From Flagellimonas oceani (GTDB lineage Bacteria > Bacteroidota > Bacteroidia > Flavobacteriales > Flavobacteriaceae), in the NCBI RefSeq assembly GCF_011068285.1, contig NZ_CP049616.1:2336501-2400500 (forward strand): DNA of 64,000 bases, in the 5' to 3' direction. The notes under the pieces are model-generated. The model saw nothing but the letters and a program-made list of their open reading frames with translations, did no database searches and was not told the origin of the DNA. This document shows, piece after piece, positions 1-21,680 of the stretch. The position numbers and the translations under genes are program-made. The stretch's first letter is position 1, and each line of letters opens with the position of its first letter.

Positions 1-2507
1 TCTTCGATATCATAAGAGCCGGTTTCCGGGTCCACTCCGTGGGACCGGTACAATTTCACAATGGTCAAGGGTTCCCCAATGATATAGCGGTTGGAGAAGG
101 TGGAGGTCTCCAGACCATCGAAGGCGACCAGTTTGTTCTTGGGTACGGTAATATTAAAGTTCGTACTCCATGAAAACCTTCTATTTTTGATATTGATACT
201 GCGGAAATCAATCTCAAATCCAGTGTTTTGCACTGTGGCGTCAAAATTCCCGGTAAGCTGTGAAAAGCCCGTTGTCGCAGCCAATGGAATACCCACCAAT
301 TGGTTGGAGGAGCGGTTCCGATACCAGGAAGTATTGACCAGCAATCGGTCCTTGAAAAAGCCCAATTCCATGGCCAATTCCAATTTCCTGTTCTCCTCCC
401 ATCCAAATAATGGGTTGAAGATACCGGTGGGTTCCAGTACCATGGTCCCATCATATTCCTGCCCTGTGACATCATAGGTGTCCAAAAAACGGTAATCCCC
501 GATATTGTCACTGCCCGTTGTACCATAACTGCCCCGTAGCTTCCCGTAGCTTATAACATCACTGTTGGCCAGAAATGTCTCATTGGAAAAGAGCCATGCG
601 GCTCCAATGGCACCAAAGTTCCCGAACTGCTTGCCCGGTCCAAAGCGGGAGGATCCATCCCTTCGCCCCGTGAGATTTAGGATATACCTATCCTGAAATT
701 TGAGGTTGACCCGTCCAAAGAGGGCATTGTACCTGTACTCGCTATCCGTGTCCGTGATGATCTCCAAGGTCTCGGCGGCGGCCAAGTTCTGAATGAGGTT
801 ATCACTTGGAAAACCCTTGCCCCGTTGGACCAATTGTTGGGCAGTTTCCTCTTGAAAGGAGGTACCTACCAGAATATCCACGGCAAAACCGCCCCACTGC
901 TTCTTCCAACCGATCTGTGGCTCCACTATCCATGACTCCCGATACGAGCCATTGGTGGTCAAGGAGGAACTTGATTGGGGCGTATGCCCATCCCCAGGGT
1001 TCCTTGCCGAGCTGGGCAAGGTCCTTCGGGAATCCAAACGATACCGGGTAAAACCCATGCTTGACTTGACGACCAGGTCGGGCAGAATACTATAGGATAG
1101 GACCGCATTGGAGATGATGGTATTGGACTCCAGTCCATAGGTTTCCTCCAAAGAGGCCAGTGGATTGTCCCAGGTATTGTTCTCCCAGTTCAAGTTCCCT
1201 TGTTCATCAAATACCCTTGGAGCATTGGGCTTCAACGTATAAGCGCTCTGGGTAAAATCAGCAGCGGGCAAATCGTTGACCTCGTGGGTAAAGCCCGTGG
1301 AAAGGTTAAGGCCAAAACGGCCATTTTTGGATCGATGGTTCAGATTGCTGTGAACCGATGCCCTTTTATAATTGAAATCCCCTGGAAATACCGTGGTCTC
1401 GTTTTGAAGGGCCCCACTGACCAAAAATTGTGTATGGGCACTACCCCCCGAAACAGAAAGCTGTACATTGTTCCGGTAGGCTGTGCCTCCAATCAGTTCC
1501 TCTTGCCAATCGGTATAACGTTCACTGTCCCAGGTCTTGAGTTCCGGCCATATAAAATCAAAGGCAGGGTCATTCAACAAATCTCCATAGCCATCATTGA
1601 CAATGCCTTCCCTTCGCACCTCCAAATATTCCCGTGTGTGCATCAAATCCAAGAAATGGGATACTGAACCAAGAGAGGTACTGAGATGGGCATCGAACCT
1701 TGTTTTTCCGGCCCTGCCCTTTTTGGTAGTGATCAATACGACCCCATTGGCACCACGGGATCCATAAATGGCGGTCGCATCGGCATCTTTCAGGACTTCG
1801 ACACTTTCAATATCATTGGGATTAATGGCGTTGAGGGGGCTGATGTCCCCACCAACGATCAAACTGGACATACTGGTCGAGCCCAAGGACTGGGAACCAA
1901 AGGGCACACCATCCACGATGTACAAGGGATCGCTGACCCCGTTGATAAAATTACGACCACGGACCTCGATCTCAAAGCCCCCTCCGGGCACTCCGGTATT
2001 CTGTACAATATTGACCCCGGAAAGATGTCCCTGCATGGCCGCCAAGGGATTGCCCACCGGCTGTTTATCGATTACTTCGGCACCGATGGCCACAATATTT
2101 CCGGTACGTTCTTTCTCCGAAACGGTATAATACCCGGCATTGAGGACCACTTCCCCAAGAACTGTGACATCTTCTTCCAAAGAAACAAAGACCTCTTCCC
2201 TACCCCCTATGGGCACGGAAAGGGTTTTATAACCCACCATGGAAAAGACCAGAACATCAGAAGGACCGGCATTAATGGAAAAGGAACCGTCCAAACCGGA
2301 AATGGTCCCGATATGCTTGGACTCCACCACAAGGTTCACCCCGGCCAGGGGCTTGCCCGTACTATCGGTCACGGTGCCGGTAACGGTGGCCTGTGGCGGT
2401 TCCAAGACAGTGCCCGCCTGCACATTAAATGAAAAATGTGGCGTTAAAAAGACATAGAGGAGCACGGACAGGATTCCCCTGCGCATGCGTATTGTTATTG
2501 GTTGCAT
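1..2507 (-). CDS. SusC/RagA-family TonB-linked outer-membrane receptor (C-terminus beyond window)
   Basis: The minus-strand frame is open from ATG 2507 to the window edge (about 835 codons; the family is usually about 1000), so roughly the last fifth is missing. Seen: a hydrophobic signal peptide in the first 32 residues, a carboxypeptidase-regulatory-like domain (GTVTDSTGKPLAGVNLVV, about residues 42-60), a plug domain with DPLYIVDGVPFGSQ and IYGSRGANGVVLITTKKGR, then beta-barrel sequence. Known for the family: SusC proteins import glycans or peptides through the outer membrane with a SusD lid, which would lie beyond the left edge. The gene has an unusually long upstream region holding a match to the guide of the dCas12f locus at 12.7 kb, so I infer RNA-guided activation by the sigma/dCas12f pair. 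The substrate cannot be told. An internal ATG at residue 8 is an alternative start. Confidence 0.93.
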   Translation of the reverse strand, partial: MQPITIRMRRGILSVLLYVFLTPHFSFNVQAGTVLEPPQATVTGTVTDSTGKPLAGVNLVVESKHIGTISGLDGSFSINAGPSDVLVFSMVGYKTLSVPIGGREEVFVSLEEDVTVLGEVVLNAGYYTVSEKERTGNIVAIGAEVIDKQPVGNPLAAMQGHLSGVNIVQNTGVPGGGFEIEVRGRNFINGVSDPLYIVDGVPFGSQSLGSTSMSSLIVGGDISPLNAINPNDIESVEVLKDADATAIYGSRGANGVVLITTKKGRAGKTRFDAHLSTSLGSVSHFLDLMHTREYLEVRREGIVNDGYGDLLNDPAFDFIWPELKTWDSERYTDWQEELIGGTAYRNNVQLSVSGGSAHTQFLVSGALQNETTVFPGDFNYKRASVHSNLNHRSKNGRFGLNLSTGFTHEVNDLPAADFTQSAYTLKPNAPRVFDEQGNLNWENNTWDNPLASLEETYGLESNTIISNAVLSYSILPDLVVKSSMGFTRYRLDSRRTLPSSARNPGDGHTPQSSSSLTTNGSYRESWIVEPQIGWKKQWGGFAVDILVGTSFQEETAQQLVQRGKGFPSDNLIQNLAAAETLEIITDTDSEYRYNALFGRVNLKFQDRYILNLTGRRDGSSRFGPGKQFGNFGAIGAAWLFSNETFLANSDVISYGKLRGSYGTTGSDNIGDYRFLDTYDVTGQEYDGTMVLEPTGIFNPLFGWEENRKLELAMELGFFKDRLLVNTSWYRNRSSNQLVGIPLAATTGFSQLTGNFDATVQNTGFEIDFRSINIKNRRFSWSTNFNITVPKNKLVAFDGLETSTFSNRYIIGEPLTIVKLYRSHGVDPETGSYDIE

Positions 2508-3020
2508 AAATTGAGTTCTTTTGATTAAAGCGTTAGTTATTCTCCACACTGCCCTTTAAGTCACGGAAAATCCGTATCTTCCAAAAAGGACATCAAGGTT
2601 CGGACATAGGCCACCCTGTCCGGGTAATAGCATACCCAGAAATAGGATTCCTAAACCAAAAAAGACCATGGTTTTGTGATTGGGCCGGTTGCCCTAAAAA
2701 AGTGTATACGTCAGTCATGGGACCAAAGGATATCGTGAACCGGAAAAGTGTGTAACATATATCCCACAACTATGGCCCAAGGATTAAACGGGATTCTTTG
2801 GCTTTTTCTTGAACAGGATATCAAACACCGAGTGACAGGCCCCAAAAATGGAACAAAAACACGGGGTGAACCCTACAGAAAAAAATTGCCAAATGTTTCC
2901 CATAACCCAGTTGGTTGGGCGATACTCCGAAAGGATAAAAGAAACCAAACGCTAAGAAGAAAGTTGTAATGAACCAAATACCCAAAAAAAGGCGCGGAAC
3001 TCAACTTAACGGACGGAGGC
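2508..3020 (-). other. Long leader region of the susC gene, no convincing gene
   Basis: About 510 bp lie between the susC start and the palindromic element with the guide match. Only short, unconvincing ORFs occur on either strand. I see no canonical TTTG-N19-TAnnTTTG promoter close to the susC start on the minus strand. If transcription starts just downstream of the guide target, this stretch would be a 5' untranslated leader of roughly 480-500 nt. It could carry regulatory structure or a small leader peptide, but nothing is recognisable. Confidence 0.5.
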
Positions 3021-3110
3021 ACTGGTAAATGCCCTGCAAACGATAAGTGAGCCCACGCCCGGGTCGTGAGCAAACTGCTTATCATCTCGTTCGCATAAAA
3101 AATTACCAGT
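3021..3110. repeat. 90-bp concentric imperfect palindrome holding the guide target
   Basis: Three nested inverted repeats share nearly the same centre (about 3061-3066): ACTGGTAA 3021-3028 with TTACCAGT 3103-3110; GATAAG 3042-3047 with CTTATC 3078-3083; CACG 3054-3057 with CGTG 3065-3068 around CCCGGGT. The element is GC-rich beside AT-rich DNA. It resembles small interspersed palindromes of bacterial genomes, but I cannot name the family and see no second copy in the window. The 16-bp guide match (3043-3058) occupies its left inner arm. Confidence 0.6.
3043..3058 (-). promoter_or_regulatory. Predicted DNA target of the dCas12f guide RNA, upstream of susC
   Basis: Read on the minus strand this is GCGTGGGCTCACTTAT. 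The guide start encoded after dcas12f (12763 to 12748) is GCGTGGGCTCTCTTAT: 15 of 16 identical, with one mismatch at guide position 11, and no similarity beyond position 16. The base 5' of the target (3059, read as G) fits the minimal 5'-G target-adjacent motif I recall for dCas12f-sigma systems. The match begins exactly where the RNA scaffold ends. The target lies about 536 bp upstream of the susC ATG, with the non-target strand being the susC coding strand, so PAM-distal transcription would run into susC. By hand, 49/4^16 times about 128,000 positions gives about 0.0015 chance matches in the window. Function is inferred. Confidence 0.7.
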
Positions 3111-3190
3111 TTTCCATCCGAGAATCAAAGCGATTGCTTCAAATATGTTCTAAACGAAGAATCGCAAATTTAAATAACTGGATGCAATAT

Positions 3191-3235
3191 AATAAAATAT
3201 TTTAGTTTTCGGTCGAACGACCGAAGTATTTTATT
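3191..3235. promoter_or_regulatory. Inverted repeat, possible operator upstream of the XRE gene
   Basis: TTCGGTCG (3208-3215) and CGACCGAA (3218-3225) form a perfect 8-bp inverted repeat with a 2-bp spacer. Outer arms AATAAAATA (3191-3199) and TATTTTATT (3227-3235) extend it imperfectly. It ends about 25 bp before the start of the small HTH gene, where an autoregulatory operator would be expected. It could instead be a terminator-like hairpin. Confidence 0.45.
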
Positions 3236-3258
3236 TCCCATCCTATTCCTTTGTCTTG

Positions 3259-3492
3259 ATGTCAAATATTAATGTGGAAATATGTAGCTATATAACCAAG
3301 GAATGGTTACTCCCTTGGTTAAGGGAAGGAAAGTCCCAGAGTTCCTTTGCTATTAAACACAATATTGACGAAAGTACTGTAAGGAAAATAAAAGGCAGAA
3401 ACGAATATAGAATACCCGTGGAGACTTTAAATAGAATCTGCGAAGCCAAAGGTATAAAGCTTAGCGAATTTTTCAAGCTGGCGGGCCTTTAA
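3259..3492 (+). CDS. Small XRE-family helix-turn-helix DNA-binding protein
   Basis: This is a 77-residue protein that is almost entirely a Cro/XRE fold: QSSFAIKHNIDESTVRKIKG gives helices 2-3, followed by PVETLNRICEAKGIKLSEFF. It is a cytoplasmic DNA-binding regulator by family, with no effector domain. I chose ATG 3259 over the adjacent TTG at 3256. A palindrome sits just upstream, suggesting autoregulation. It stands alone between the susC leader and an IS21 element. Its neighbours do not show what it controls, although the divergent susC leader is a candidate. Confidence 0.8.
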   Translation: MSNINVEICSYITKEWLLPWLREGKSQSSFAIKHNIDESTVRKIKGRNEYRIPVETLNRICEAKGIKLSEFFKLAGL

Positions 3493-4128: not shown

Positions 4129-4866
4129 TTAGTTTTTATTTTTCAATTTTCTTCTCATTGATTCTCCTTTTATGTCGATTCTGTGTGCCGTGTGCACCAA
4201 ACGGTCGAGGATGGCATCGGCCAGTGTTTTTTCACCTATGATGTCATGCCATACTTCGACTGGTAGTTGTGATGCTATAATAGTGGACCTTTTGCCGTGA
4301 CGGTCCTCGATGATCTCCATAAGCGCATGCCTGTTGATGTTGTCCAATGGTTTAAGGCCGAAGTCGTCCAAGATGAGCAAGTCCTGTTTTTCAAGTTTGT
4401 TTATCTGTTTTGGATAGGAACCGTCGGCCTTTGATGTCTTGAGCAGGGTAAAGAGCTTGGCGGTGTTGAAGTACATGACCTTTCGCCCCAAGGAGCAGGC
4501 CTGGTGGCCAATGGCCGAGGCCAGATAACTTTTTCCCACACCGGTACTACCTGTAATAAGTATGTTCTCCCTTTTTGGGATGAAGTCGCAAGAGCCTAGT
4601 CGCCGGACCAGGTTCTTGTCCAGTTGGCGTGACGGTCGGTAGTCGATAGCTTCCATGACGGCCATATACCTGAACCTTGCGGACTTGGTCAATCGCTCTA
4701 TCCTACGGTTGTGCCGGTCGTCCCATTCGCTCTGGATGAGATAGGCAATGAGTTCGTCATTGGTATAGTCGGTATCGGCACCTCCGGTTTCCATTGTTGT
4801 TGCAAAGGCCCTGTGCATTCCAAAGAACCTCATTTCTTTCATCAATTGCATTGTTTTTTTGTTCAT
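4129..4866 (-). CDS. istB: IS21 helper ATPase IstB
   Basis: This 245-aa AAA+ ATPase shows Walker A GSTGVGKS and Walker B LLILDDFGL, plus the family's DnaC-like core and a basic C-terminus. In IS21 transposition IstB acts with the IstA transposase, remodelling target DNA. It lies 20 bp downstream of istA in the same direction, the usual order. The length is normal for the family and no frameshift is seen, so it could be functional. Confidence 0.95.
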   Translation of the reverse strand: MNKKTMQLMKEMRFFGMHRAFATTMETGGADTDYTNDELIAYLIQSEWDDRHNRRIERLTKSARFRYMAVMEAIDYRPSRQLDKNLVRRLGSCDFIPKRENILITGSTGVGKSYLASAIGHQACSLGRKVMYFNTAKLFTLLKTSKADGSYPKQINKLEKQDLLILDDFGLKPLDNINRHALMEIIEDRHGKRSTIIASQLPVEVWHDIIGEKTLADAILDRLVHTAHRIDIKGESMRRKLKNKN

Positions 4867-4886
4867 ATGTCCAGTTTTAAGTGTTT

Positions 4887-6431: not shown

Positions 6432-6585
6432 GGTGCTTTTTAACAAAAAAAGCACTTAGACTTTTTACAGATAGATCTAATCTAAAGGTGGTCCACTTTG
6501 GCCCGGCGGGGGTGGGTCACTTTCGTCCGGCCAGCTATGGTCACTTTAACCCGGCGAGGGTGGTATACTATGTCCGGCGTTTCCA

Positions 6586-9358: not shown

Positions 9359-9703
9359 ATGACAAAGAAGAACACGGAATCAATCGTAAAGGACATTAAA
9401 AGGAATACAAGGAGGAAGTTTTCTGCAGAGGAAAAGATCCGTATCGTGCTGGAAGGTCTCAAGGGCGAGGAATCGGTATCCGGCATCTGCAGGCGTGAGG
9501 GCATTGCCCCGGCACTGTACTATCGTTGGAGCAAGGATTTTCTGGAAGCTGGGAAGAAGCGCCTGATGGGTGACACCATGCGCGAGGCCAATACCAGTGA
9601 AGTAAAGGAACTCCGTGGGGAGAACTCCCAGCTTAAGGAAACGGTGGCCGAACTGTTGCTCCAGAACCGGGTGCTCAAAAAAAGTACCAATGGCTTAGGG
9701 TAA
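9359..9703 (+). CDS. IS3 transposase OrfA (HTH subunit)
   Basis: This 114-aa protein is basic at its N-terminus, with an HTH (RKFSAEEKIRIVLEGLKGEE, then SGICRREGIAPALYYRWSKDF) and a C-terminal leucine-zipper-like coiled coil (SEVKELRGENSQLKETVAELL). That is the standard architecture of IS3 OrfA, which binds the IS ends and multimerises. OrfB follows 14 bp downstream. I did not identify a slippery frameshift site that would fuse the two. Confidence 0.92.
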   Translation: MTKKNTESIVKDIKRNTRRKFSAEEKIRIVLEGLKGEESVSGICRREGIAPALYYRWSKDFLEAGKKRLMGDTMREANTSEVKELRGENSQLKETVAELLLQNRVLKKSTNGLG

Positions 9704-9717
9704 AATGGAGGAAGTAC

Positions 9718-10695
9718 ATGCGATTTACCCAACAGGAGAAATACGAGATCATAAGGCTTGTGGAGACATCTGAAATAGGCGTGAACAGGACATTGAAGGA
9801 AATAGGGATAAACAAGAGCACCTTCTACAACTGGTACGGTAAGTACCTCGAAGGTGGCTTTGACGGACTTGCGCCCAACCATAGGGCACGCAATACCTAT
9901 TGGAACAGGATACCCGACAAGATTAGGTCGGAGGTCGTGGAGATGGCCCTGGACTTCCCGGAGGAATCCTGTCGCGGACTTGCCTGTAAGATGACCGATG
10001 AGCGGGAATACTATATCTCGGAGAGCAGTGTCTACCGCATACTTAAGTCACGTGGACTGGTGACATCCCCTGCTTTTGATACCATGGCCGCTTCACAGGA
10101 GTACAGGGACAAGACCATAAGGGTTCACCAGATGTGGCAGACGGACTTCACCTATCTGAAGATCGTCGGGTGGGGCTGGTACTATCTCTCGACCATTCTG
10201 GACGATTACAGCCGATATATTATCCATTGGGAACTCTGTCCCTCGATGAACGCAGGGGATGTGAAGAAAACAGTGGGAAGGGCATTGGAAAAGGTATCGC
10301 TGCCCAAAGGGCAAATGCCAAGGCTCCTGTCGGACAACGGGCCCTGTTACATCAGTGGCGAACTGAAGGAGTTCATAAAGGAAAGGGAGATGGAGCATAT
10401 CCGGGGAAAACCGAACCATCCACAGACGCAGGGCAAGATAGAGCGTTACCACCGTTCGATGAAGAACATCATCAAACTGGACAACTACTATATGCCGGGG
10501 GAACTCAAGGAAAGGTTGGAAGAGTTCGTGGACTATTACAACAACAGGAGATACCACGAATCATTGGACAACCTGACACCGGCAGCCGTATATTTCGGAA
10601 GGGACAAAAAGATATTGGAAAAACGTAAATCGATAAAGAAAAGAACGATGCTCAAAAGAAGGAAAGAGCACCTAATTCAAAAGTTGAAACTATGA
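9718..10695 (+). CDS. IS3 transposase OrfB (DDE integrase core)
   Basis: This 325-aa protein has an N-terminal HTH (VNRTLKEIGINKSTFYNWYG) and an rve integrase core. The catalytic acidic residues appear in MWQTDFTYLKI, LLSDNGPCYIS and QGKIERYHRSMKN, with the usual spacing of the third to the second. The C-terminal VDYYNNRRYHESLDNLTPAAVYFGR is characteristic. It carries out IS3 cleavage and strand transfer. The frame is intact. Confidence 0.95.
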   Translation: MRFTQQEKYEIIRLVETSEIGVNRTLKEIGINKSTFYNWYGKYLEGGFDGLAPNHRARNTYWNRIPDKIRSEVVEMALDFPEESCRGLACKMTDEREYYISESSVYRILKSRGLVTSPAFDTMAASQEYRDKTIRVHQMWQTDFTYLKIVGWGWYYLSTILDDYSRYIIHWELCPSMNAGDVKKTVGRALEKVSLPKGQMPRLLSDNGPCYISGELKEFIKEREMEHIRGKPNHPQTQGKIERYHRSMKNIIKLDNYYMPGELKERLEEFVDYYNNRRYHESLDNLTPAAVYFGRDKKILEKRKSIKKRTMLKRRKEHLIQKLKL

Positions 10696-10718: not shown

Positions 10719-12296
10719 CTAATTCGTTTGAAGACGTACAACAATATCTCTTATTGTTCCTCCCTTGAAATTTTCTAATTCACTTTCCCATTTTTTTAAT
10801 CCAAATACGCTTTTTCTACCAATTGGAACAAAACCATTTTTTCGTTTCATTGAAACTCTGATTTTTGCTTCCTCAGTATTATAATTGGGATGAAGTTCTA
10901 TTACCTTTTCAAAAATCACTTTTACTTTTGATGGCCTTCCTAAATGTTCAAGTGCTTCGTAAGCGTATTCGTGTGCTTGTCGATTGGTGTTTCTTTTAAA
11001 AATTAGGTTTTCATCTAAATCAAGATAAATTTCAAATTCACTATTTATTAAGTTCTCACAAATTGGCAACAATAAATCTAAAATATCAATATTGCCTTTA
11101 GTTAGAAATTTAGAAAGATAGCTCTTAAAATGAAAAGAATAAGATTCTTCAATTCTATCACATATTCTGCTTGAAATATCGTTGGTTAAAGCAGTAAAAT
11201 CAATTTCAGAAGCCAGTTGTTTTTCTACTAAATAGAAATTATTCCAATTATGTCTGTTGCGAGAATTAAAATATTTTGGTTGCAAAACGTCTTCATAATT
11301 TCCAACAAGTGTAAAACTGTCTTTTAGATATGCTGAAAGTATAAAAGTGATAAATTCTATCGAAAAATTAGAATTATTTGATTTGTTGATTTTGTCTGAA
11401 ACATCTGTATCAATTTCAATATAACTGGACTCCGTATCTATGCTGTATTTTTGAAATAAATCGTCATTGAAATTAGAAATAAAAAGTAGCTTGTTAGATA
11501 ATTTATCAAGACAAAGCTTTCTGATTTGCCTAACTCTTTCTCTCGAAAGGTCAACTTGTTCAGCAATCTCATCGAGCGTAAATTCTCTCTGATTATCGTA
11601 TAGCTTTAAGGCTTTCTTAATAATTATTGTTTGATTTTCATCAAAAAATGCATTTTGATTTAAGAGAAAGTCTGTAAGTTGAAAAATAGATTCGGATTCT
11701 AATATTTGGCTTGGAACAAATGGAATATCGAAAGTTCGCTGTATTAGAAATTTATTCTTTAATGCTATTAAATACCGTTCATCTTTTGTATGGCTAACTT
11801 CTAATAAAAAATCTTTAATAATCGAAATATAGACTTTTAATTCAGGAACACATTTATATCCAACATTCTTGATGTTTTCAAGGTCAAAACTTTCAGTAAG
11901 AAGAATTTTTTCGGCAAAATTTTTAACCTTTAAGTTGTGATTTAAAAACATGGAGATTGCATTCTTGCTTCTTGTAGATAAACTATCAGTATTTACGAAA
12001 ATAAAGCTATTTATAACTTCTCTTTGAACTCTAGTTAAATTGAAAATTATGCTTTTTAGAGGATTCTCTTTTTTGATTTCAATTTCTCTATTTTCAGTTA
12101 CTTCATCTTGATATCTATTACATATATTAATTAACTCCTCATTAGATTTACGCCCACAATTCTGAAGCCCTTCAAAGGATTTTTTGAGATGATAGTACTT
12201 CTTTAAATCTGATATAGAATTTAATTTGTTGTATTTACAGATGTGGTAAGACCTAACACTTATTTCTTCTTTTTTGTAGATTTCGTCAATAGTCAT
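10719..12296 (-). pseudogene. Alpha-CTD / sigma-region-4 / HARE-HTH-like regulator, probably truncated by IS3
   Basis: About 525 residues remain from ATG 12296 (a GTG at 12305 is also in frame). Residues 1-65 resemble the RNA polymerase alpha C-terminal domain (SISDLKKYYHL...LQNCGRKSNEELI). A second helix-hairpin-helix-like piece follows (ENIKNVGYKCVPEL). Residues about 241-271 are a sigma70 region-4 HTH (FTLDEIAEQVDLSRERVRQI). The C-terminal part (ALEHLGRPSKVKVIFEKV...FGLKKWESE...GGTIRDIVV) looks like a HARE-HTH/RpoE-delta module. The stop codon TAG is read across the IS3 boundary (10721-10719), so the native C-terminus is probably lost. It may be a transcription or DNA-binding factor; its role is unknown. 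Composition is AT-rich compared with the IS. Confidence 0.7.
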
Positions 12297-12742
12297 ACTT
12301 TTCACAAATCAATATTATCTTCTTTAAATACAGTTGTTTTATTTATACTTTTTTTGTTTTCCCAATTTCGTTCTAACTTTATCAGAAAGCAGCTACCTAG
12401 TTTTTTCAGCGCTAGCCTGTGTCTCGGCAAAATCCAAATGTGCTGTTTAATATTATTTGCCTGATTAAGACATGTAGAAATACGGAACAATTATTATGTT
12501 CAATTAAAAACTTAATCAGATATCCATAAACTTTCAGATTATATAGTCAGGCTTAATTTTCAATGAATCAATTAAATTTTGGGGAGATGCTTTAAATGTA
12601 AGAATTTTCCATGAATTGAAAAATGTGAAATTCTGTAAAAAAGTTTAGCAAGATTATTCAAGTAAGGGTTAAAAATGCTATAGTCTTAGCCTTTCTTTAG
12701 TCTTCTCAAAAAAGAATATCTATCTTAGATTGAAGTAAAAAT
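12297..12742. other. AT-rich intergenic stretch between the sigma4-like gene and the guide-RNA region
   Basis: About 445 bp have no convincing gene. Short ORFs on both strands have no recognisable composition. An imperfect inverted repeat (AGAATTTTCC... to ...GAAATTCT, about 12600-12637) is the only local structure noted. On the minus strand the T-runs after 12742 (TTTTT, then a weak hairpin and TTTTTT near 12712) could end the guide-RNA transcript. Confidence 0.4.
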
Positions 12743-12840
12743 CACACATAAGAGAGCCCACGCGTTGTATATGCTGTTCGCATTTAGTGAGTGCCAATGA
12801 CCTCACCTTACGGGTGTACAAGCACCCTCGATAGGTTTTG
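12743..12840 (-). ncRNA. Guide RNA of the dCas12f system: scaffold plus guide
   Basis: This lies directly after the dcas12f stop, on the same strand. The scaffold (12840-12764) has three hairpins: GGGTG/CACCC (12827-12823 with 12816-12812), GTGAG/CTCAC (12806-12802 with 12791-12787) and ATGC/GCAT (12783-12780 with 12774-12771). It ends in ATACAAC, reminiscent of the CAAC ends of Cas12f RNAs. The guide begins at 12763 (GCGTGGGCTCTCTTAT, then GTGTG), and a T-run follows at about 12741-12737. The first 16 nt match the susC upstream target. No repeat array is present, so this would be a single-guide RNA made from the dcas12f 3' region. The 5' end and processing are unknown, and it may overlap the end of the coding sequence. 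Confidence 0.72.
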
Positions 12841-13938
12841 TTAGTCAATTATAACTTCGAGACCAGCTTTCTTTGCTTTATATTCTATTTTGGTCATCAA
12901 ATCATAGTAGCTCCAATTTCTCAATACAAATCCCTCTTCTTTGGCAATCTCAGTTTTTTCCTCCTGATTCAATAGTATGAGGGTTCCCGCTTTATGCTTA
13001 ACACAAAAATCAATCAATCTCCGGCTATAGACATGCAAACGGTTATGGACATATTTACGTTCCGTTTGTCCAAGTCTGTCAACTGCCTTTAGTTTTCTTT
13101 TGATGCCATTACCCGATCTGGAATAAGTTGCCCCAATCTTTGCCCGTCTGTGTGCCGATTGTATCGCCAGTCTTCTGTATAAAAACTCTTCCTTTGTGCC
13201 AATAGTAAGCCTTGTTTTACCGACCTTAACAACAATGGGATATTCAAGGGACAGAGAAGCCTCTGCAATTATTTCAGGTCTTAAGTTGTGACTTTCCTTT
13301 TCAATTTCAAATACTGCCAATAAGAAAATCTTGCCACCTTTTAGCTTGATGTGCGATGTGCACAGCTTAGTTTTGCCCTCAACTACCCGCTCCAACAATT
13401 TTCGTTTATCAGTAAAATCTTTGCCTAAGTAGGTTTTAAAGGGAATCTGAAATAAACGAAAGCAAAAGGTTTTTTTCTCTTCACTATAGTGTAATCCACT
13501 CATACCCTCCATGTCAAAAGGGAAGGCTATATCCCTCCTAAAGTTTTTCAAAGATTGTTCACCGTTCCAATACACTGGTCTGTTCTTTTTGAAAGATGAA
13601 ATCAAGGCCTGGTTCAAATTGGACAATATGTTTGTGGGGATTTCTCCTTTAAAACGATCTGATACCACTCGATAGGTAGTGTTGATCCTGGAACGATTAA
13701 GGATTCCTTGTTCATCTTTCTTTTCATCAGCCAATTTATATTTTATCCCATCCGATAGATAAAAGAATTCCCTTATCATTTCCTGAACATAAAGGTGGGT
13801 CACTATGAGGTTGGCCGCCCTAAAGCACCTGTTCTGCCATTGGTACAATTTATCAAGAGCCTCCTTTTTTTCTTCTTTTGTAGGAAGGTCAATCAGTATT
13901 TGGATCTTTCGAGTGAGTTTTAGGGTTGACTTTTCCAT
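12841..13938 (-). CDS. Nuclease-dead Cas12f-like RNA-guided protein (dCas12f)
   Basis: This 365-aa protein has a TnpB/Cas12f-type layout. The N-terminal WED/REC-like part (KLTRKIQILIDLPTKEEKKE, SSFKKNRPVYWNGEQSLKNF) is followed by the RuvC-fold beginning near residue 230. In active relatives RuvC-I reads GIDxG; here YPIVVKVGK puts Lys or Val at the Asp position (about K238). The RuvC-II Glu position is Asn (LILLNQEE, N324). The protein stops at AKKAGLEVIID, just where the zinc-finger and RuvC-III Asp would follow. I therefore infer an RNA-guided DNA binder without cleavage. The start is 1 bp after the stop of the sigma-factor gene, indicating translational coupling. As I recall, dCas12f-sigmaE pairs from flavobacteria have been reported to activate genes by RNA-guided RNA polymerase recruitment. 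Confidence 0.85.
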   Translation of the reverse strand: MEKSTLKLTRKIQILIDLPTKEEKKEALDKLYQWQNRCFRAANLIVTHLYVQEMIREFFYLSDGIKYKLADEKKDEQGILNRSRINTTYRVVSDRFKGEIPTNILSNLNQALISSFKKNRPVYWNGEQSLKNFRRDIAFPFDMEGMSGLHYSEEKKTFCFRLFQIPFKTYLGKDFTDKRKLLERVVEGKTKLCTSHIKLKGGKIFLLAVFEIEKESHNLRPEIIAEASLSLEYPIVVKVGKTRLTIGTKEEFLYRRLAIQSAHRRAKIGATYSRSGNGIKRKLKAVDRLGQTERKYVHNRLHVYSRRLIDFCVKHKAGTLILLNQEEKTEIAKEEGFVLRNWSYYDLMTKIEYKAKKAGLEVIID

Positions 13939-13939
13939 T

Positions 13940-14731
13940 CTAGACTGATTGTAATTGATGTTTTGCTTCCATTAACCTATATGCTATCATGAATTCCTGA
14001 TGCACTTCCTTTTGGGAGAGATTAAGTTCATTGGCTATTTCGGAAAAGGAACATCTTAGTTCACAACGCATTTTAAGCACCCTTGTCTGCTCTTCTGTCA
14101 TCTCGCCAGTAAACTTTATCTCATCCGTATTGTTGTTACTGGAAACGAGCTTATTTCCCTGATGAATGATGGTCTTGATATCTTCAATGGCTTCCTTGAT
14201 TTCCCTACAAGTTTCATTGATGCCTTTACCCAACACCTTGGAAATAGCTTTATACTGAAAGCCATGTTTCAAACAAAGATTAATCAAATGTCTTTTACTG
14301 TCATCCAATAAGGGCAGGACGAGTTTGATACTTTCGAACTTCTCTTGTTCCCCTTCCTGTAATTTAAAATTGTTGTTATCCTCACGAGGGTCATACCCGA
14401 TCATATAGTCTTGGTAATTTTCATAACACTCCAACGAGTGGAATTTCCTGAAAAACCTGTTCTTTGGGCGATTGTAATATGTAATGCACTCCCTTTTCAT
14501 AACAAACCGCAAGAAAAAATAAATATGCTTGGGTGATTCCAAACTGTCCCTATGTACCCACAACTTCAAGAATACATTCTGGACCAAGGTTTCCACAACA
14601 AAACCATCATCAAGAAAACTCTTGCCAAGCCAGAAAATCTGTGTGTGATATCTGGTATAGATTTCCGCAAAAGTTGAAGTACAACCTTTCTTCAATAATT
14701 CCAGATGTTTGTGGTCAATATTTGAAATCAC
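13940..14731 (-). CDS. ECF-type sigma factor partnered with dCas12f
   Basis: This 263-aa protein begins at GTG 14731; no in-frame ATG exists upstream before a stop. Residues about 19-88 form sigma region 2 ([34 protein letters not shown]). Residues about 135-185 form a region-4-like HTH ([35 protein letters not shown]). A second HTH follows at about 212-255 ([36 protein letters not shown]), making it longer than ordinary ECF factors (about 180-200 aa). There is no anti-sigma gene; instead dcas12f follows with a 1-bp gap. I infer that it is brought to targets by dCas12f-gRNA and recruits RNA polymerase core. The extra C-terminal HTH may be the dCas12f or DNA contact. Confidence 0.88.
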
Positions 14732-14864: not shown

Positions 14865-15128
14865 ATGACAAAAAAAGATGATCATAAAGACCCTGCACTG
14901 GTTTCCATAGGTTCAATGTTCGAGACGGGAAAAATTCGAAAGATGTACACACTTGCTGAATTATATCCGACTAGAATAGCGAAATCACTTGGCATAAATT
15001 ATGGTAGGTACATGGTCAAACTGAACCATCCCGATAAGTTCACCATGGGGGAAATAGTAAGGCTTGCTGATTTATTAGATATAGAGCCAGATATGATCAC
15101 CAAGGTCATATATGCCGAATTAAATTAG
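14865..15128 (+). CDS. Small helix-turn-helix protein divergent from the sigma-dcas12f operon
   Basis: This 87-aa cytoplasmic protein has an XRE-like C-terminal HTH (TRIAKSLGINYGRYMVKLNH, FTMGEIVRLADLLDIEPDMI) and no other domain. ATG 14865 is the first start. It is transcribed away from the sigma factor, with a 133-bp shared AT-rich region, so it may regulate its own promoter and that of the operon. Whether it is a conserved part of the dCas12f system cannot be judged here. Confidence 0.75.
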   Translation: MTKKDDHKDPALVSIGSMFETGKIRKMYTLAELYPTRIAKSLGINYGRYMVKLNHPDKFTMGEIVRLADLLDIEPDMITKVIYAELN

Positions 15129-15440
15129 AGTTTAGCACTCAATTATCTTCAAGTGCCGTTTAATTAATCTTTCAAAGAAAGCGAACGGAACGCAGTGAAG
15201 TGCTGCAAGAGTCCCAAAACTTACCAAACTAATACTACTGAGCAAGGTGAAATACTCCTTCATCATTCATTCTTACTAAGAATTCCTTGATTTTGTAAGG
15301 GGAGAGGCCTTTTTGCAAACATCAATTAATGGTTATTTCATTGTTATAGATTCCCATAAACCACTACTAAGAATAATCCTTATATTGAGATTCTATTATA
15401 AAAGGATTTCTCCCCCAAGTATTAATTAATAATATGTTCA
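15129..15440. other. Intergenic region, no gene recognised
   Basis: About 310 bp are AT-rich apart from a short GC-richer patch near 15176-15220 (GCGAACGGAACGCAGTGAAG and following). That patch looks like a fragment of an interspersed repeat or a decayed gene end. I see no clear promoter, hairpin or coding sequence. It may be the scar where the 5' part of the neighbouring hsdS was lost. Confidence 0.4.
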
Positions 15441-15710
15441 ATGTATCAGAATAATATCACAGTAGTTTGTGAAAATGGCAAAATATCAAGAGGAGAAACT
15501 TGGTTAGGAATACCACAGAATGTCTGTCAAAACAAACCAATTATGCAATTCTTGTTAAAGGTAATTGGTGAATTGGGAAATATTGACGAATATATTACTG
15601 ATTTAAAGGGAGAGGTTAATAGACTTAAAGAACAAGAAATAGCAAAGCTACAAGAACATAAAAGTAGTTTAATTAATAGTGTGGTAACAGGTAAAGTAAA
15701 GGTGTGTTAG
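15441..15710 (+). pseudogene. C-terminal fragment of a type I restriction specificity subunit (HsdS)
   Basis: The 89 codons end in NRLKEQEIAKLQEHKSSLIN followed by SVVTGKVKV, the hallmark conserved coiled-coil tail of HsdS proteins (normally about 400 aa). No target-recognition domain and no hsdM or hsdR are nearby, so this is a remnant. It may still be translated, because it overlaps the next gene by 7 bp. It suggests the defence cluster replaced or recombined with a type I R-M locus. Confidence 0.75.
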
Positions 15711-16531
15711 TATCTACAGTAAATAAACATACCTCTTTATGTCAGCTCTTTATTAGAATTTCAGAAGCGGTGTGGCATAAAATTGCCGCTTATCACAATT
15801 TAGGTATTGAGGTTCCCGAAATTGGCTTAACTGCCGATTTAATTTATGAACTTACTAACTGGGGTAATATAACTGGTAAAGCAGATTGTTATATCCGTAA
15901 AGCTTTTGATGAATCTGTAAATGGAAATGATGTTGAGCTCTATATAAAAAACAACATGGGCACGTATGACCATTATGCCCTTCAAGCCAAAGTTTTAAAG
16001 AATGATAAAAAATATAAGGGTTTAGATACAGGCTATAAGACATCTAGTAAGTACCAATGGGATAAGCTTTATGATTATGCTAAGAGTAATGGTTGTCTAC
16101 CATTTTATCTCCTATATAATGGAAATACAAATATTACATTCCCATATTTAAAAAAGTACTGGTTTTTTGACGAACGGCAGTTTGGATGTTCGATTGTTGA
16201 GCCTAGAGTATTTCAATATTTTTATAAAAGAAAAACCAAAACCCCAACTTATACTCAAATAACTCCTAAATATGCATACCCTTGGACTGCTTTGACCTGT
16301 TCTAAATCTTCTCGTCATAAAATGGCCTCTTCCTCACAACAGCAGAATTACAGAGCAAAATCTATAGGTGAGATTAAAAATTCTTTAAGTGGATATAAAA
16401 AAGTTGATAGCTTAGAAAACGAAAATCCATCATCTGAAACAAATTTATCTAACGAACTATATTCTTATGACACTTGGAATCCGATTGCCAAAATAATAAT
16501 TGATAATACAGATTCAAGGGATGAAAGGTAG
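15704..16531 (+). CDS. DUF6615-like protein of a putative defence cluster
   Basis: This 275-aa protein has a likely GTG start at 15704, since no ATG lies in frame near the N-terminus. The N-terminal half (LCQLFIRISEAVWHKIAAYH, GLTADLIYELTNW, VELYIKNNMGTYDHYALQAK) resembles DUF6615, a nuclease-like fold. The D/E...QAK arrangement (LYIKNN...YALQAKVL) looks like a degenerate PD-(D/E)XK core. The C-terminal third is polar and low in complexity. It overlaps the HsdS fragment by 7 bp and the next gene by about 11 bp, so the three large genes appear to be one operon. Substrate is unknown. Confidence 0.5.
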   Translation: MLVSTVNKHTSLCQLFIRISEAVWHKIAAYHNLGIEVPEIGLTADLIYELTNWGNITGKADCYIRKAFDESVNGNDVELYIKNNMGTYDHYALQAKVLKNDKKYKGLDTGYKTSSKYQWDKLYDYAKSNGCLPFYLLYNGNTNITFPYLKKYWFFDERQFGCSIVEPRVFQYFYKRKTKTPTYTQITPKYAYPWTALTCSKSSRHKMASSSQQQNYRAKSIGEIKNSLSGYKKVDSLENENPSSETNLSNELYSYDTWNPIAKIIIDNTDSRDER

Positions 16532-17216
16532 AATTGAATTTACTAAAGAAGAAGCCAAAGAAATTGAAGAATTAATAACCCTTAAACTTGAAGCAGATGG
16601 CAACGCACAAAAAGGAATTAGAGCCAAAATTAGAAGGAGGGGATTTTATGCATCAGATTTTTGTTTAAATCGAAGCTACACCGTAGCCGATTTCAGGAGT
16701 GTAGTTATTATTGGCGGCAAAGCACCTTTAGCTTCTCCTCTGCTCAAAAAAGCCAATGTTCAAAAAAAAACTAAAGGCAACCAACCAAAACAAAAGCCTA
16801 CTACAGCAAAAAATAATGATGAAGCTTATATTATTGACCTCTGTGACCAAGTTTTACAGCAAACCGCTATACGACAGCATCGTTTTGATTTCCTAAAAGG
16901 CGATTCGGGTACAAAATTACCGGTAGACGCCTACTACCCTACCTTGAATTTAGTTTTAGAATATTACGAACGTCAACATTCAGAGTCGGTTCCTCATTTT
17001 GATAAGCGCATGACTGTATCGGGCATATCTAGAGGTGAGCAACGGAAACGATATGATGAGCGAAGAAAAATTGAATTGCCCAAAAATGGTTTAAAACTGA
17101 TCATATTAAATTATACGGAGTTTGCCCATAATTCTGGAAAACGATTGATTCGAGATTTAAGTAATGATATAGAGGTGATAAAAAAGAAGTTAAATGGATT
17201 TCTTAGGAAAGATTAA
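16521..17216 (+). CDS. Predicted PD-(D/E)XK/Vsr-like endonuclease
   Basis: This protein is about 231 aa from ATG 16521; a TTG at 16500 is less likely. The N-terminal part is helical (KEEAKEIEELITLKLEADG). After a lysine-rich linker, the C-terminal half reads DEAYIIDLCDQVL, RFDFLKGDSGTKLPVDAYYP, LNLVLEYYERQHSE, RRKIELPKNGLKLIILNY. This has the D...ExY pattern and trailing basic residues of Vsr-like/PD-(D/E)XK nucleases. It lies between the DUF6615-like gene and the large ATPase with tight spacing, as expected for the nuclease part of a defence operon. The assignment is from motifs only. Confidence 0.55.
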   Translation: MKGRIEFTKEEAKEIEELITLKLEADGNAQKGIRAKIRRRGFYASDFCLNRSYTVADFRSVVIIGGKAPLASPLLKKANVQKKTKGNQPKQKPTTAKNNDEAYIIDLCDQVLQQTAIRQHRFDFLKGDSGTKLPVDAYYPTLNLVLEYYERQHSESVPHFDKRMTVSGISRGEQRKRYDERRKIELPKNGLKLIILNYTEFAHNSGKRLIRDLSNDIEVIKKKLNGFLRKD

Positions 17217-17228
17217 CGCTTTTAGTTT

Positions 17229-20200
17229 ATGGAAGGAATAAATGTTAAAAACCAAGTAGAAGCGATTATAAGAAAACGATGGGAAGAATTACGAAACCCA
17301 AAGAACTTATTAAGCTTAAACAGTATTGAGAAACAAACCAATCAAGGTTATAATGGAAGACAACTATTGGAGTTGTTTCAAAACTGTGAAGACGAAGGTG
17401 CTTCTAAAGTAAGAATCCACCTAGATACTAGAAATCAACTTTTAGAGATTAGCAATAACGGTAACAAACCGTTCTCTGTTAAAGGTTACGATTCTATTTT
17501 TTACCCTGGTTTATCATCTAAAGTTTCGTCAGATTTTATAGGTAATAAAGGACTTGGTTTTCGTTCAATTATTAATTGGGCAAGTAAAATATCTATTTTA
17601 AGCAATGGGTTTGCTTTGATTTTCGATTCGGCATTAAAAAGAGACATTCTATTAAATAAAATAGGATATACTGAACAGGAACTATCAGTTATTAGAAAAG
17701 AACGAAATTTAAAGGATAATGTGTATCCTTTACCATTGTTAAACTGTTGTGAAATTGAAGATTATATCAATAGAAAAGCCTTTACAACCACTATTACTAT
17801 TAACTACAAAGCAGAATATGAAGAAGGCATCAAAGAGCAGCTTAAGTCAATAAGCGAAAAAACACTTTTATTCCTTAAAAACATAGAAGCTATAGAAATT
17901 GAGGGTGACTTTTTAAGTAAAACAATTTCTGTTTCAAGGAAGAAAATCGCTGAGAATAAATTTGAAATTAATCATAATGGAAAGATATATTTTGTTATAA
18001 GTTCTGACGGTATTGTAGATGAAAGCCTTATCGAGGATAAAGACTCTAGCCAACCAAAAAAATACAGCGTTAAAATTGCCTATAATGATGATTTATCCTT
18101 TAGCGATAAAGTATTATACAACTATTTTAAAACTCAAATTCCCTTTGAGTTACCATTTGTAGCACACGCTAGTTTAGAATTGGACCAAAATAGAAATCAT
18201 AGTACAAAGTCTAAAGTCAATCCATTTGTATTAAAAAAACTGTTTCAGTTGCATTTAGAATTAGTTGAAAATTTAAAACACAAACACACAAAATCCTGGT
18301 TGCCATATCAATCAATTAATAATGATGATTTAAAAGTTTATGAGCCTTATTCTATTTTAATAGATAATTATTGGGAAAAATTTAAAGTTTACCCAATCTT
18401 TTCAGGCGAGTATGTTACAGCATCAATTGCTAAAAATTTAGGAAACAGAATCGCAGAATTTATTGCGGACAATAAACTTGAACATCTTTATAGTGAGCAA
18501 ATAGTATTTTGTGATTTGCCTATTACACCACAGCAATATGTGAATAAGCCAAAAAATTATAGAGAAATAATAGAACGATTGGCAGTTGCATTAACAGTAA
18601 AACAAAGAGCAAGGTTAGTAAGTCTATTATTAGAAATATATCCAAATGAAAAGTTTCAAGTTTTAATTGATGAAAAAGAAGATCCAATTAAAATAGAAGA
18701 CTTTGTTTATACAGATAAAACGACGGATAATAAAGATTTACAAGTACCATTTTATTCCAACATTCGATTTTTAAATTCAGATTTATTTAGAGAGTTGATA
18801 GTTCAACTTAAATTGCAAACAGCTACACATAAGTCTAGAAGCTTAAAAGCTAAATTGGATAAGATTTCAGATGTTCACGAATTCCAGCCTCAAATAGTAA
18901 ATGAGAAAATAATCAGTGAGACCAATAATTACCTTAAAAAATCGGAGGTAAATAAAAATGAAGTAATCAAAGAGTTTTATCAGAAGCTATTTTATAATTA
19001 TAATTTAAGAGAAGATAATCCTGAGCTAGATTATGACGGCATAATACCTTGTTTAAATCAAACTAACGAGTTATCTGATATTAAATGCTTGGTGCTTTCT
19101 AAAGAATTTGAAATTGGACAGTTGTCATTCAATATTTTAGGAAAATTATACGATGAGTCAAATACAATTGCAACAATAGCTGATTTAGGACTACAAAATC
19201 AAGACATAAAAAAGGTTGAGACTTTTTTTAAATGGCTGGGAGCGAACCCATTTACCATTATTGAAAAACTAAATAGAGGCGTAAGTAATCAATACCTGTC
19301 TTTTTGCAAAAAAGCATATGGCCAAACTATTCGTAGTTATAACTTATATAGTATAAAAAACTTAGGTAGAATTCTTAAACAAGATTCAACAAGTATTAAT
19401 CAGATTCTATGTTGGCTTTCCTTAGATGAAAGACTGATCAAAATATTTACAAATTTCACAAAGTCTTATTCTTCAGAGGAAAGGTTGAGTTTCATATATT
19501 ATAATAAACAAAGAAATGTAGGTTCTTTTGAAAATCCAATTTTTTATCAATTAACAGAATTTTTCGAAATCAAGAATTATTTGATTACGAATAAAAAGCA
19601 AGAATGGTTCAATCCATTCAAAGTTGATTACGATTCTTTGCTTGCAAAGAATGAAAAACTGGATAAGTTTGAGGTTGATAGAATTCTTGTCTTTTTTGGG
19701 GCAAAAAAAGATTTCAATGATTTAGATATAAATTATTTAAAAACTAAGACACAAGAGCTTGCCAATAGAAATAACAAAAAAGGTGCACAAGTTTTTTATA
19801 AAAGATTGGTAAGCCATTATAAGGAAAATGAGGAACAAATACTAGATACTGAATTATATGCTAGAGTAGGTGATGATATTGTGGTTAAAAAGGCTAGCGA
19901 AATCTATTTTAGTGATAGAATACAACTACCAGATTCGTTAACAAGAAAATTTCCCATATTTTATTATCCGTCTCGGTCAGGTGGTTCTAGGGCTATAAAG
20001 ATGTTTGGTCTTAAAGATTTAAATGCTCTAGATTTAAAAATAGAGGAAAAAACGCCAAACCATTTTATTGCAGATGCTTTCCAAAAATTTATAAAGGAAA
20101 TTAAGCCCTTTATATTGGCTTTTAGATTAGATAAAATAACTAAGGAAGATGTAAAGAATGGGCAAGTTCAATTATTGAATAAATTAAAAATAGAGGTTTG

Positions 20201-21680
20201 TTCTAAGTTAGAATGTAGTATTGACACTGAAGTTTTTAGTATTGAACCCTATAATTATATATATAAGAATAATACCTTTTATTTTAATATCCCTAATGGT
20301 TCAACTATTGCCGATTCTAAGCAAAAAAAAATATTTAGGGATAACCTTTCGGATGTATTTTTAAAAGTCTTCGACACACTCGATGAGAAGAAAACTTTTG
20401 AGACAATAATTATGCAATCGCGAGAAGATAATATCTATGATTTAAAGAATGAACTAGCAGATGGTATACTAGAAGAAGCAAAAATACTATTAGGTGAAAT
20501 AAGTGTTAGATTATCAATATGGAAGACTATTTTCAAACTTAAAAATATCAGTATTCCAAGAGATTTAAATGAAAATAACATAGAGGAATATATCATTCAA
20601 CATTTCCCCTTAATTGAACCACAGTTGTTGTTTAATTCTGATGATAATTTTGAAGAACTTTCGAAGATTAGAGGGTGTTTTCAGAATTTAAATCTTGACA
20701 TTGAGAGATATAATGAAATATCAGATTACAAACTGTCTTTTGATTCACTATACACAAAGGAACTTTCTACATTTTATGAGAAACATAAGAAAAAAATAAA
20801 AAATCAAGTATGGTATCATTTATCTAAAAGTACAGGAGAACTGCAAGCAAACTTTATAAAGTATTTACACCAAATAGAAACTTTATTAAATGATTTTAGC
20901 TTAGACCAAAATAAGAATAGCTATAATCTTACAAATGAAATTGTGAACCTTTTAAAGAACAAACTTGGATTTGTTGAATTCGATTTTGAAGATGATAAAC
21001 ACCTAGATTATGATTTGATTGAGAATAAAAATAGTAAAGAATTTAATGAAGATGAGAGGTATCAAATAAGAAAAGATGAATTATTAAATAGCCTAAGTTA
21101 CTTTGAAGGTAATATCGATTATATAAAGAAAAAACTATCCGAAAAGAATATTCAAGCCATTGAAGAAAAAGAACCTCAATTTAATTTAAATCTTAATGAG
21201 GAACCAGAACTTGTGGAAGATTTTGAATTTGAAAATATTACGGAGCGTCAAGAACCACAAAATAATGGAATCTGGTTAGGTGCTACGAAAGGTTCAAGTA
21301 ATGGCTTGTCAGATACAGAAAAGAAAAAATTAGGAAATAGTGTAGAGGAGGTTATTAAAAAATATTTGCTAAGTAAACCAGATTTATATTCTAAAGTGGA
21401 GCTCATAGCAAAAACCAATGAAAACGCTCACTATGACATTAAATACTTTGATAATAAAGCTAATGAGATGAAGTATATAGAAAGTAAATACTATAATGGA
21501 TTTTCATTTGACTTGTCCGAACCTGAAAGAGAATTTGGCTATAAAAATGCTAAACAATATGAAATTTGGTTAGTTAACAAGCAATCCAAGATATTTGCGA
21601 TTAAGGATATCAATAAGCTAGGTAAATTAAAGCCTTTAAAATACAGAGTGAAAATAAAATTAAAAGAATATGCAGTCTAA
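17229..21680 (+). CDS. Large GHKL (sacsin-like) ATPase with C-terminal DUF3883
   Basis: This 1483-aa protein starts 12 bp after the nuclease gene. Residues about 40-115 show a GHKL/Hsp90-type ATP site: N-box LLELFQNCEDEGASKV, ISNNGNKPF, and FIGNKGLGFRSI. A very long helical middle follows, ending in an acidic segment. The last 100 residues match DUF3883/NOV-like nuclease folds (LGNSVEEVIKKYLLSKPDLY, HYDIKYFD, YIESKYYNGFSF). Sacsin-like ATPases with DUF3883 are recurrent in bacterial defence islands, but I do not recognise this gene trio as a named system. I infer a sensor ATPase controlling nuclease partners. Composition is strongly AT-rich relative to the flanks, indicating acquisition. Confidence 0.7.
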   Translation: MEGINVKNQVEAIIRKRWEELRNPKNLLSLNSIEKQTNQGYNGRQLLELFQNCEDEGASKVRIHLDTRNQLLEISNNGNKPFSVKGYDSIFYPGLSSKVSSDFIGNKGLGFRSIINWASKISILSNGFALIFDSALKRDILLNKIGYTEQELSVIRKERNLKDNVYPLPLLNCCEIEDYINRKAFTTTITINYKAEYEEGIKEQLKSISEKTLLFLKNIEAIEIEGDFLSKTISVSRKKIAENKFEINHNGKIYFVISSDGIVDESLIEDKDSSQPKKYSVKIAYNDDLSFSDKVLYNYFKTQIPFELPFVAHASLELDQNRNHSTKSKVNPFVLKKLFQLHLELVENLKHKHTKSWLPYQSINNDDLKVYEPYSILIDNYWEKFKVYPIFSGEYVTASIAKNLGNRIAEFIADNKLEHLYSEQIVFCDLPITPQQYVNKPKNYREIIERLAVALTVKQRARLVSLLLEIYPNEKFQVLIDEKEDPIKIEDFVYTDKTTDNKDLQVPFYSNIRFLNSDLFRELIVQLKLQTATHKSRSLKAKLDKISDVHEFQPQIVNEKIISETNNYLKKSEVNKNEVIKEFYQKLFYNYNLREDNPELDYDGIIPCLNQTNELSDIKCLVLSKEFEIGQLSFNILGKLYDESNTIATIADLGLQNQDIKKVETFFKWLGANPFTIIEKLNRGVSNQYLSFCKKAYGQTIRSYNLYSIKNLGRILKQDSTSINQILCWLSLDERLIKIFTNFTKSYSSEERLSFIYYNKQRNVGSFENPIFYQLTEFFEIKNYLITNKKQEWFNPFKVDYDSLLAKNEKLDKFEVDRILVFFGAKKDFNDLDINYLKTKTQELANRNNKKGAQVFYKRLVSHYKENEEQILDTELYARVGDDIVVKKASEIYFSDRIQLPDSLTRKFPIFYYPSRSGGSRAIKMFGLKDLNALDLKIEEKTPNHFIADAFQKFIKEIKPFILAFRLDKITKEDVKNGQVQLLNKLKIEVCSKLECSIDTEVFSIEPYNYIYKNNTFYFNIPNGSTIADSKQKKIFRDNLSDVFLKVFDTLDEKKTFETIIMQSREDNIYDLKNELADGILEEAKILLGEISVRLSIWKTIFKLKNISIPRDLNENNIEEYIIQHFPLIEPQLLFNSDDNFEELSKIRGCFQNLNLDIERYNEISDYKLSFDSLYTKELSTFYEKHKKKIKNQVWYHLSKSTGELQANFIKYLHQIETLLNDFSLDQNKNSYNLTNEIVNLLKNKLGFVEFDFEDDKHLDYDLIENKNSKEFNEDERYQIRKDELLNSLSYFEGNIDYIKKKLSEKNIQAIEEKEPQFNLNLNEEPELVEDFEFENITERQEPQNNGIWLGATKGSSNGLSDTEKKKLGNSVEEVIKKYLLSKPDLYSKVELIAKTNENAHYDIKYFDNKANEMKYIESKYYNGFSFDLSEPEREFGYKNAKQYEIWLVNKQSKIFAIKDINKLGKLKPLKYRVKIKLKEYAV

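Follow-up and report, generated by a model that had tools for sequence, protein, structure and literature searches.

A probable dCas12f-sigmaE RNA-guided transcription locus in Flagellimonas oceani with one guide that matches the leaders of five paralogous susC-susD-metallopeptidase operons

The stretch of DNA analyzed here by computation (the window) comprises 64,000 nt of Flagellimonas oceani (GCF_011068285.1, NZ_CP049616.1, positions 2,336,501-2,400,500 of the forward strand). On its minus strand, a gene for a 263-aa ECF sigma factor (sigmaE; 13940..14731, GTG start) is followed, across a gap of 1 bp (13939), by a gene for a 365-aa dCas12f without RuvC catalytic residues (12841..13938). This order, the strands, and both protein lengths bear out a preliminary description of the locus, in which the two genes were read as coupled. 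The sigma factor matches RpoE in a solved structure (PDB 9n9q, chain C; E = 2.4e-109). In family searches, TIGR02937 and the Pfam model of sigma region 2 score above their cut-offs, and region 4 falls slightly under its own. The arrangement recurs in relatives: a sigma gene adjoins dCas12f in 61 of 65 dCas12f loci collected from named genomes (66 loci with the window), which come mostly from genera of Flavobacteriia; a few carry a Cytophaga or Pedobacter label. The remaining four are two partial dCas12f matches (L063 and L065) and two loci close to a contig end (L035 and L057). No anti-sigma gene lies directly beside the window's sigma gene, whose neighbors are dCas12f and a divergent gene for an 87-aa protein (14865-15128, plus strand) that received no Pfam or NCBIfam assignment.

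The 365-aa protein matches, over its residues 1-364, the chains named "Nuclease-deactivated Cas12f" in PDB entries 9n9c, 9n9m, 9n9o, and 9n9q (E = 3.8e-189). A Pfam search returned no match for it, and NCBIfam and PADLOC assign it to TnpB and Cas12f, so that profile comparison places it in the sequence family supposed beforehand. It is also similar to the Cas12f effector 9nzo (E = 2.1e-42) and to the PADLOC Cas12f model (E = 2.9e-52). It thus shares a sequence family with the Cas12f nucleases, but its RuvC-I and RuvC-II residues are replaced and its C terminus is missing. Specifically, the 9nzo motif IVGVDLGINIP aligns to IAEASLSLEYP in the window's protein, which puts Ser228 at the place of the RuvC-I Asp; the same position holds Ser, Ala, or Thr in all 13 aligned members, the window's included. 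The preliminary description had recognized the loss of this Asp and had located it at Lys/Val 238, a register error that the alignment corrects. The RuvC-II Glu, which the same description had read as Asn324, is likewise lost; it corresponds to Leu323 in an ungapped reading and to Asn324 only one step further, and residue 324 is N, D, or E among the 13 aligned dCas12f members. The C terminus of the protein coincides with the end of its alignments to active Cas12f, and RuvC-III presumably lies beyond that point, in agreement with the earlier view that the protein stops before it. The intact Asp and Glu that mark an active Cas12f or TnpB nuclease are therefore not found here.

Directly 3′ of dCas12f, the RNA folds into hairpins and then runs into a guide-like tail. 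The scaffold of this guide RNA (gRNA; 12764..12829, minus strand) has three hairpins and matches the gRNA model R2 (E = 1.7e-18); it is followed by the guide GCGTGGGCTCTCTTA (12749..12763, minus strand), whose length of 15 nt is defined by conservation. The fold energy of this single copy is modestly better than that of its shuffles (z = −1.74; 10 of 200 shuffles as good). Across 36 aligned copies, 96.7% of 540 cells are paired with 13 double-sided changes, and none of 500 shuffles scored as high. The earlier reading of a structured RNA with a guide-like tail behind the stop codon thus holds. Downstream of dCas12f, the scaffold is present in 85 copies in 62 of the 66 loci (window counted), with the usual 3′ end CATATACAAC.

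Of the 62 gRNA-bearing loci, 23 carry exactly the guide GCGTGGGCTCTCTTA; their hosts include Allomuricauda/Flagellimonas, Maribacter, Sinomicrobium, Wocania, and Yeosuana, and the DNA behind the guide diverges among them. A guide that stays identical across genera is unlike CRISPR spacers and resembles a regulator with a fixed purpose. More broadly, 59 of the 85 guides start with (G)GCGTG, and a second guide family is represented by TTGTGGGATAYACGC. Two to four gRNAs with different guides stand behind one dCas12f gene in 12 loci (L032, L034, L037, L042, L045, L046, L049, L050, L051, L052, L062, and L063); such arrays possibly supply one guide per target family. In a search of 59 genomes, the matches listed for the gRNA model and those for dCas12f fall in an identical set of nine, a coincidence beyond chance. 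We rejected the idea of orphan gRNAs in genomes lacking dCas12f, since a search with stricter filters listed none in the 59 genomes. The F. oceani genome itself, a single contig of 4.61 Mb, has one dCas12f, one gRNA, and no guide of the second family among the matches listed. The 15-mer guide also has 28 exact matches in viral contigs; a search of plasmids and phages for dCas12f gave only distant TnpB-like matches of less than 30% identity.

RNA-guided transcription by dCas12f-sigmaE pairs was reportedly described in 2025 preprints by Hoffmann et al. and by Xiao et al.; relatives of the complex are said to bring RNA polymerase to guide-matched DNA and to start transcription at a distance set from the R-loop. 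Targets of dCas12f-sigmaE systems have a 5′ G beside the guide match. Because both proteins of the window match partners in one solved complex (9n9q), the kind of locus is supported as one already known. The likeness to the dCas12f-sigmaE entries 9n9c, 9n9m, 9n9o, and 9n9q covers both proteins approximately end to end, the order of sigma, dCas12f, and gRNA, and the 5′ G, and the window combines an inactivated RuvC, an adjacent RpoE-homologous ECF sigma factor, a conserved gRNA scaffold beside dCas12f, and 5′ G target sites upstream of genes, in this case five sites before susC. The dCas12f of Allomuricauda taeanensis (L025) is 77% identical to the window's and identical to the 9n9c chain over residues 215-245; the guide of L025 differs, being TTGTGGGATATACGC and not GCGTGGGCTCTCTTA. 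The predicted targets, namely the first switch-like element in each of five susC leaders, set the window apart as well, and this prediction is new here. Among the titles and abstract openings listed by a literature search, none concerned dCas12f together with a sigma factor. The expectation of the preliminary description that the locus works like the dCas12f-sigmaE pairs is supported at the level of sequence by the 9n9q matches, the joint occurrence of gRNA and dCas12f, and the guide sites.

When the guide was compared with its own genome, five sites in leaders were found to match at 13 to 15 of 15 bases (four with 0 or 1 mismatch, one with 2). All five have the 5′ G and are fully matched at guide positions 1-10; the base before the guide at the gRNA gene itself is C. 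The site within the window is the protospacer GCGTGGGCTCACTTA (3044..3058, minus strand; 14/15 to the guide, 5′ G at 3059), approximately 10 kb from the dCas12f locus. Each of the five sites lies ~515-590 bp upstream of a SusC start codon, and family searches found susC, susD, and a met-zincin peptidase in all five operons. In the window's target operon (L187), a SusC/RagA TonB-dependent receptor (1..2507, minus strand; TIGR04056, E = 1.7e-173, and TIGR04057) runs off the window, and susD and the met-zincin gene come after it. The leader model R1 places its element at exactly five positions in the genome among the matches listed, the same five as the guide sites, out of 40 SusC signatures (35 above cut-off) and seven met-zincin matches genome-wide. 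Two met-zincin genes lie outside these operons. Several kb upstream of the first is a stretch distantly similar to SusC (26% identity), but neither a leader element nor a match to the susD query accompanies it; the second lacks a SusC-like stretch, a susD match, and a leader element. At up to three mismatches, the guide has 35 matches genome-wide versus 39 for a reversed-pattern control. Because the total does not exceed the control, the case for the targets rests on the best matches and their locations. Two matches with two mismatches fall outside leaders (at 2782984 and at 3052249, the latter near a SusC signature).

The peptidase in each operon suggests that the five operons probably serve peptide uptake, and one guide could serve them all because the same leader element is kept in all five. 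A natural RNA-guided sigma factor thereby gains a concrete predicted regulon, in which one 15-nt guide addresses five homologous operons of a single-contig genome. SusC/SusD operons are known to be controlled by ECF sigma/anti-sigma pairs. The present system shares with them the ECF sigma factor and the SusC/SusD uptake operons but differs in that no anti-sigma gene is directly adjacent and that the choice of target is predicted to be made by RNA.

The leader element in front of the window's susC (2967..3121, minus strand; G000:C1:2339467-2339621, R1 E = 7.9e-23) can adopt two conserved folds. In an alignment of 29 leader sequences, the protospacer lies within one of the most conserved stretches. 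Fold 1, a long hairpin, consists of four helices in which 99.9% of 750 cells are paired with 79 double-sided changes; its outer helix covaries at 6 of 6 pairs, with 0 of 500 shuffles as high. In fold 2, which resembles a terminator, the protospacer arm pairs with TAAGTTGAGTTCCACGCC. Here 97.6% of 377 cells are paired and 6 are changed on both sides; among 500 shuffles, none was as high in paired cells or covariation score, and 6 were as high in pairs with a double change. The two folds are mutually exclusive because the protospacer arm is common to both. The stem of fold 2 ends 65-69 bp past the first protospacer base in 58 of the 59 leaders that have the stem (62 examined), and at least five of the next eight bases are T in 43 of the 59. 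In the window, the terminator-like hairpin has its 3′ arm at 3008-2991 and its T run at 2990-2984 (together 2984..3008, minus strand). Folded on their own stretches, the window's two structures are similar in energy, with −33.2 kcal/mol (z = −3.9) for one and −33.5 kcal/mol (z = −4.3) for the other, and the whole 146-nt leader stretch has only z = −1.65. With two exclusive, conserved folds that share an arm, the leader looks like an on/off-switch RNA. Rfam gave only weak matches (one at 15290-15423 of the window and another outside the leader element), both below gathering, and at gathering level it gave no family for gRNA or leader at seven loci. None of the titles and abstract openings listed by the literature search dealt with a susC leader switch.

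Upstream of the leader, a −7-like box TTTATTATATTGC (3184..3196, minus strand) probably belongs to an ordinary promoter. Of 53 leaders, 40 are preceded by a box resembling TAnnTT(T/C)G, against a mean of 9.6 and a maximum of 18 after shuffling, and in the excerpted text of PMC9723704, TAnnTTTG is the −7 box of the primary sigma factor in a flavobacterium. Since such a box lies upstream, an ordinary promoter probably drives transcription of the leader, in which case the R-loop would sit inside the leader.

We consider it highly probable that the window holds a dCas12f-sigmaE RNA-guided transcription locus, in which one guide is directed to five paralogous susC-susD-metallopeptidase operons at a site inside their leader. 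By analogy with its relatives, RNA binding, sigma binding, and activation would be expected of this locus. dCas12f would bind the RNA encoded just downstream and pair its guide of 15 nt with DNA that is flanked by a 5′ G; the sigmaE that it holds would bring RNA polymerase. The site lies inside the leader, downstream of the probable ordinary promoter and in the arm common to both hairpins, and the guided start would fall beyond the 5′ arm of the hairpin that resembles a terminator. Because it would begin past that arm, a guided transcript could not form the hairpin. We propose, as a tentative and rather doubtful extension, that RNA-guided transcription overlies a conserved RNA switch: dCas12f-sigmaE would both block the ordinary promoter and start armless, non-terminating transcripts, turning all five operons on together, and a second dCas12f subfamily would be aimed at a second switch of the same leaders.

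A site downstream of the probable ordinary promoter would also suit a roadblock, in which dCas12f acts at the leader mainly by repressing that promoter and the sigma factor serves elsewhere. TldR offers a precedent: in the excerpted text of PMC13418256, these nuclease-dead TnpB/Cas12-like proteins regulate genes with a guide RNA and repress their targets. TldR represses, however, whereas the partner in the window is a sigma factor, which stays beside dCas12f at 61 of 65 loci and accompanies it in the solved complex 9n9q. We regard such a roadblock as unlikely. Less probable still, and in our view hardly to be expected, is that the gRNA works on the leader RNA as an antiterminator, base-paired to the terminator-like hairpin at its 3′ arm. 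The guide equals the 5′ arm and is therefore partly complementary to the 3′ arm, but pairing there would require bulges and G-U pairs, whereas guides fit the 5′ arm over 15 bases without a gap, and a G precedes the match in 41 of 45 guide-leader matches.

The distribution of the leader bears on the proposed bypass of a switch by dCas12f-sigmaE. Counts from the leader and gRNA genome searches, which score a part of the initial candidates (150, 86, or 52), are lower bounds: matches to R1 were found in at least 27 of 59 related genomes and in at least 18 of 19 further dCas12f genomes (L022 left out). Within the genus of the window, the leader occurs in 8 of 8 genomes with dCas12f versus at least 13 of 28 without it (hypergeometric chance of ~0.007, with phylogeny ignored); two genomes with a leader and no dCas12f (G024 and G027) have weak matches. 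We rejected the idea that the leader exists because of dCas12f, given its presence in at least 13 of the 28 same-genus genomes that lack the system, and for the same reason the leader is expected to work without dCas12f. A broader family of such leaders is suggested by the weak matches to the leader model (45-64 bits; L111-L117) that occur in G024, G027, and genomes from other families. Conservation without dCas12f fits a simpler reading to which we give slightly less than an even chance, namely that the guide matches the leader only as the longest DNA shared by paralogous operons, so that the arm is incidental and no switch is bypassed. Also in its favor, the protospacer is located in one of the most conserved stretches, and the T run is interrupted in L087 and L091, two of the genome's five leaders.

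Against an incidental arm speaks, as a suggestion only, the second guide family. Allomuricauda abyssi has two dCas12f loci (L003 and L027), and its second guide matches 14 of 15 bases at a second place in two susC leaders, ~260-290 bp further along, where the first site is exact to the first guide. Like the first site, it belongs to a paired arm: in an alignment that leaves out L096 and L108, 98.0% of 152 cells are paired and 9 changed on both sides. Two partner stretches compete for this second arm. A site resembling the target of the second family, TTGTGGGATATATGT, is present in the window (2755..2769, minus strand). The A. abyssi second guide has another 14/15 match on contig C76. The data are compatible with both the bypass of a switch and the shared-DNA explanation; since the target lies in a conserved switch-like leader, whether guided initiation bypasses attenuation becomes directly testable.

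We examined 60 leader loci, of which 7 lacked the anchor and 53 were classified, 36 of them before susC, 11 before sigma-dCas12f itself, and 6 before neither (four of the six in one Sinomicrobium genome). In Sinomicrobium weinanense (G064), leaders L132, L140, L144, and L146 precede genes other than susC and match the genome's own guide at 13-14 of 15 bases. We read 20 stretches downstream of leaders. Among 13 from the window's genus, susC, susD, and the peptidase are together in 12, and one ends at a contig end; among seven from other genera, one has all three genes, three have susC-susD without this peptidase (one fragmentary), and three have none. The 51 guides of 27 genomes divide into 26 that agree with some leader in the same genome at 12 or more of 15 bases, compared with 0.26 for shuffled guides, and 25 that have no such match, in a count that misses some elements through its anchor (none was found for G002). 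The guide GGCGTGTCATCCCAC, itself divergent, matches a divergent leader of its own genome at 14/15 and reaches 11 at best elsewhere. Tuning of guides to the leaders of their own genome has weak backing overall: the fit to own over other genomes' leaders is slightly better (63 of 2000 permutations as high), and for divergent guides alone 231 of 2000 permutations were as high.

Twenty loci have a guide that fits a leader immediately preceding the sigma gene of the same locus, with the 5′ G and agreement at 12 or more of 15 bases (L041 left out of the count). This match suggests autoregulation of sigma-dCas12f in those 20 loci; the R1 search found no leader element upstream of the window's own sigma gene among the matches listed.

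Several other genes surround the locus. Beside it on the plus strand are defense-like genes, which comprise one for a TmtA-like 1483-aa protein (17229-21680; PADLOC E = 5.2e-271) and, at 15441-15710 and 16500-17216, a fragment resembling the end of a type I specificity subunit and a weak restriction-enzyme match. A 528-aa protein (10719-12305, minus strand) with a sigma-70 region 4 match and stretches resembling the RNA polymerase alpha C-terminal domain was not found in the 65 dCas12f loci. Between the target operon and the dCas12f locus are an IS21-type pair (4129-6455, minus strand) and another pair of insertion-sequence genes, which includes an rve integrase core (9359-10695, plus strand). 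Finally, small proteins are encoded divergently from both the susC leader (3256-3492, plus strand; 78 aa, HTH_26 match) and the sigma gene (the 87-aa protein), with relatives in 15 and 11 of the 65 dCas12f loci, respectively. Because both recur at dCas12f loci, susC leaders may have a promoter module in common with sigma genes.
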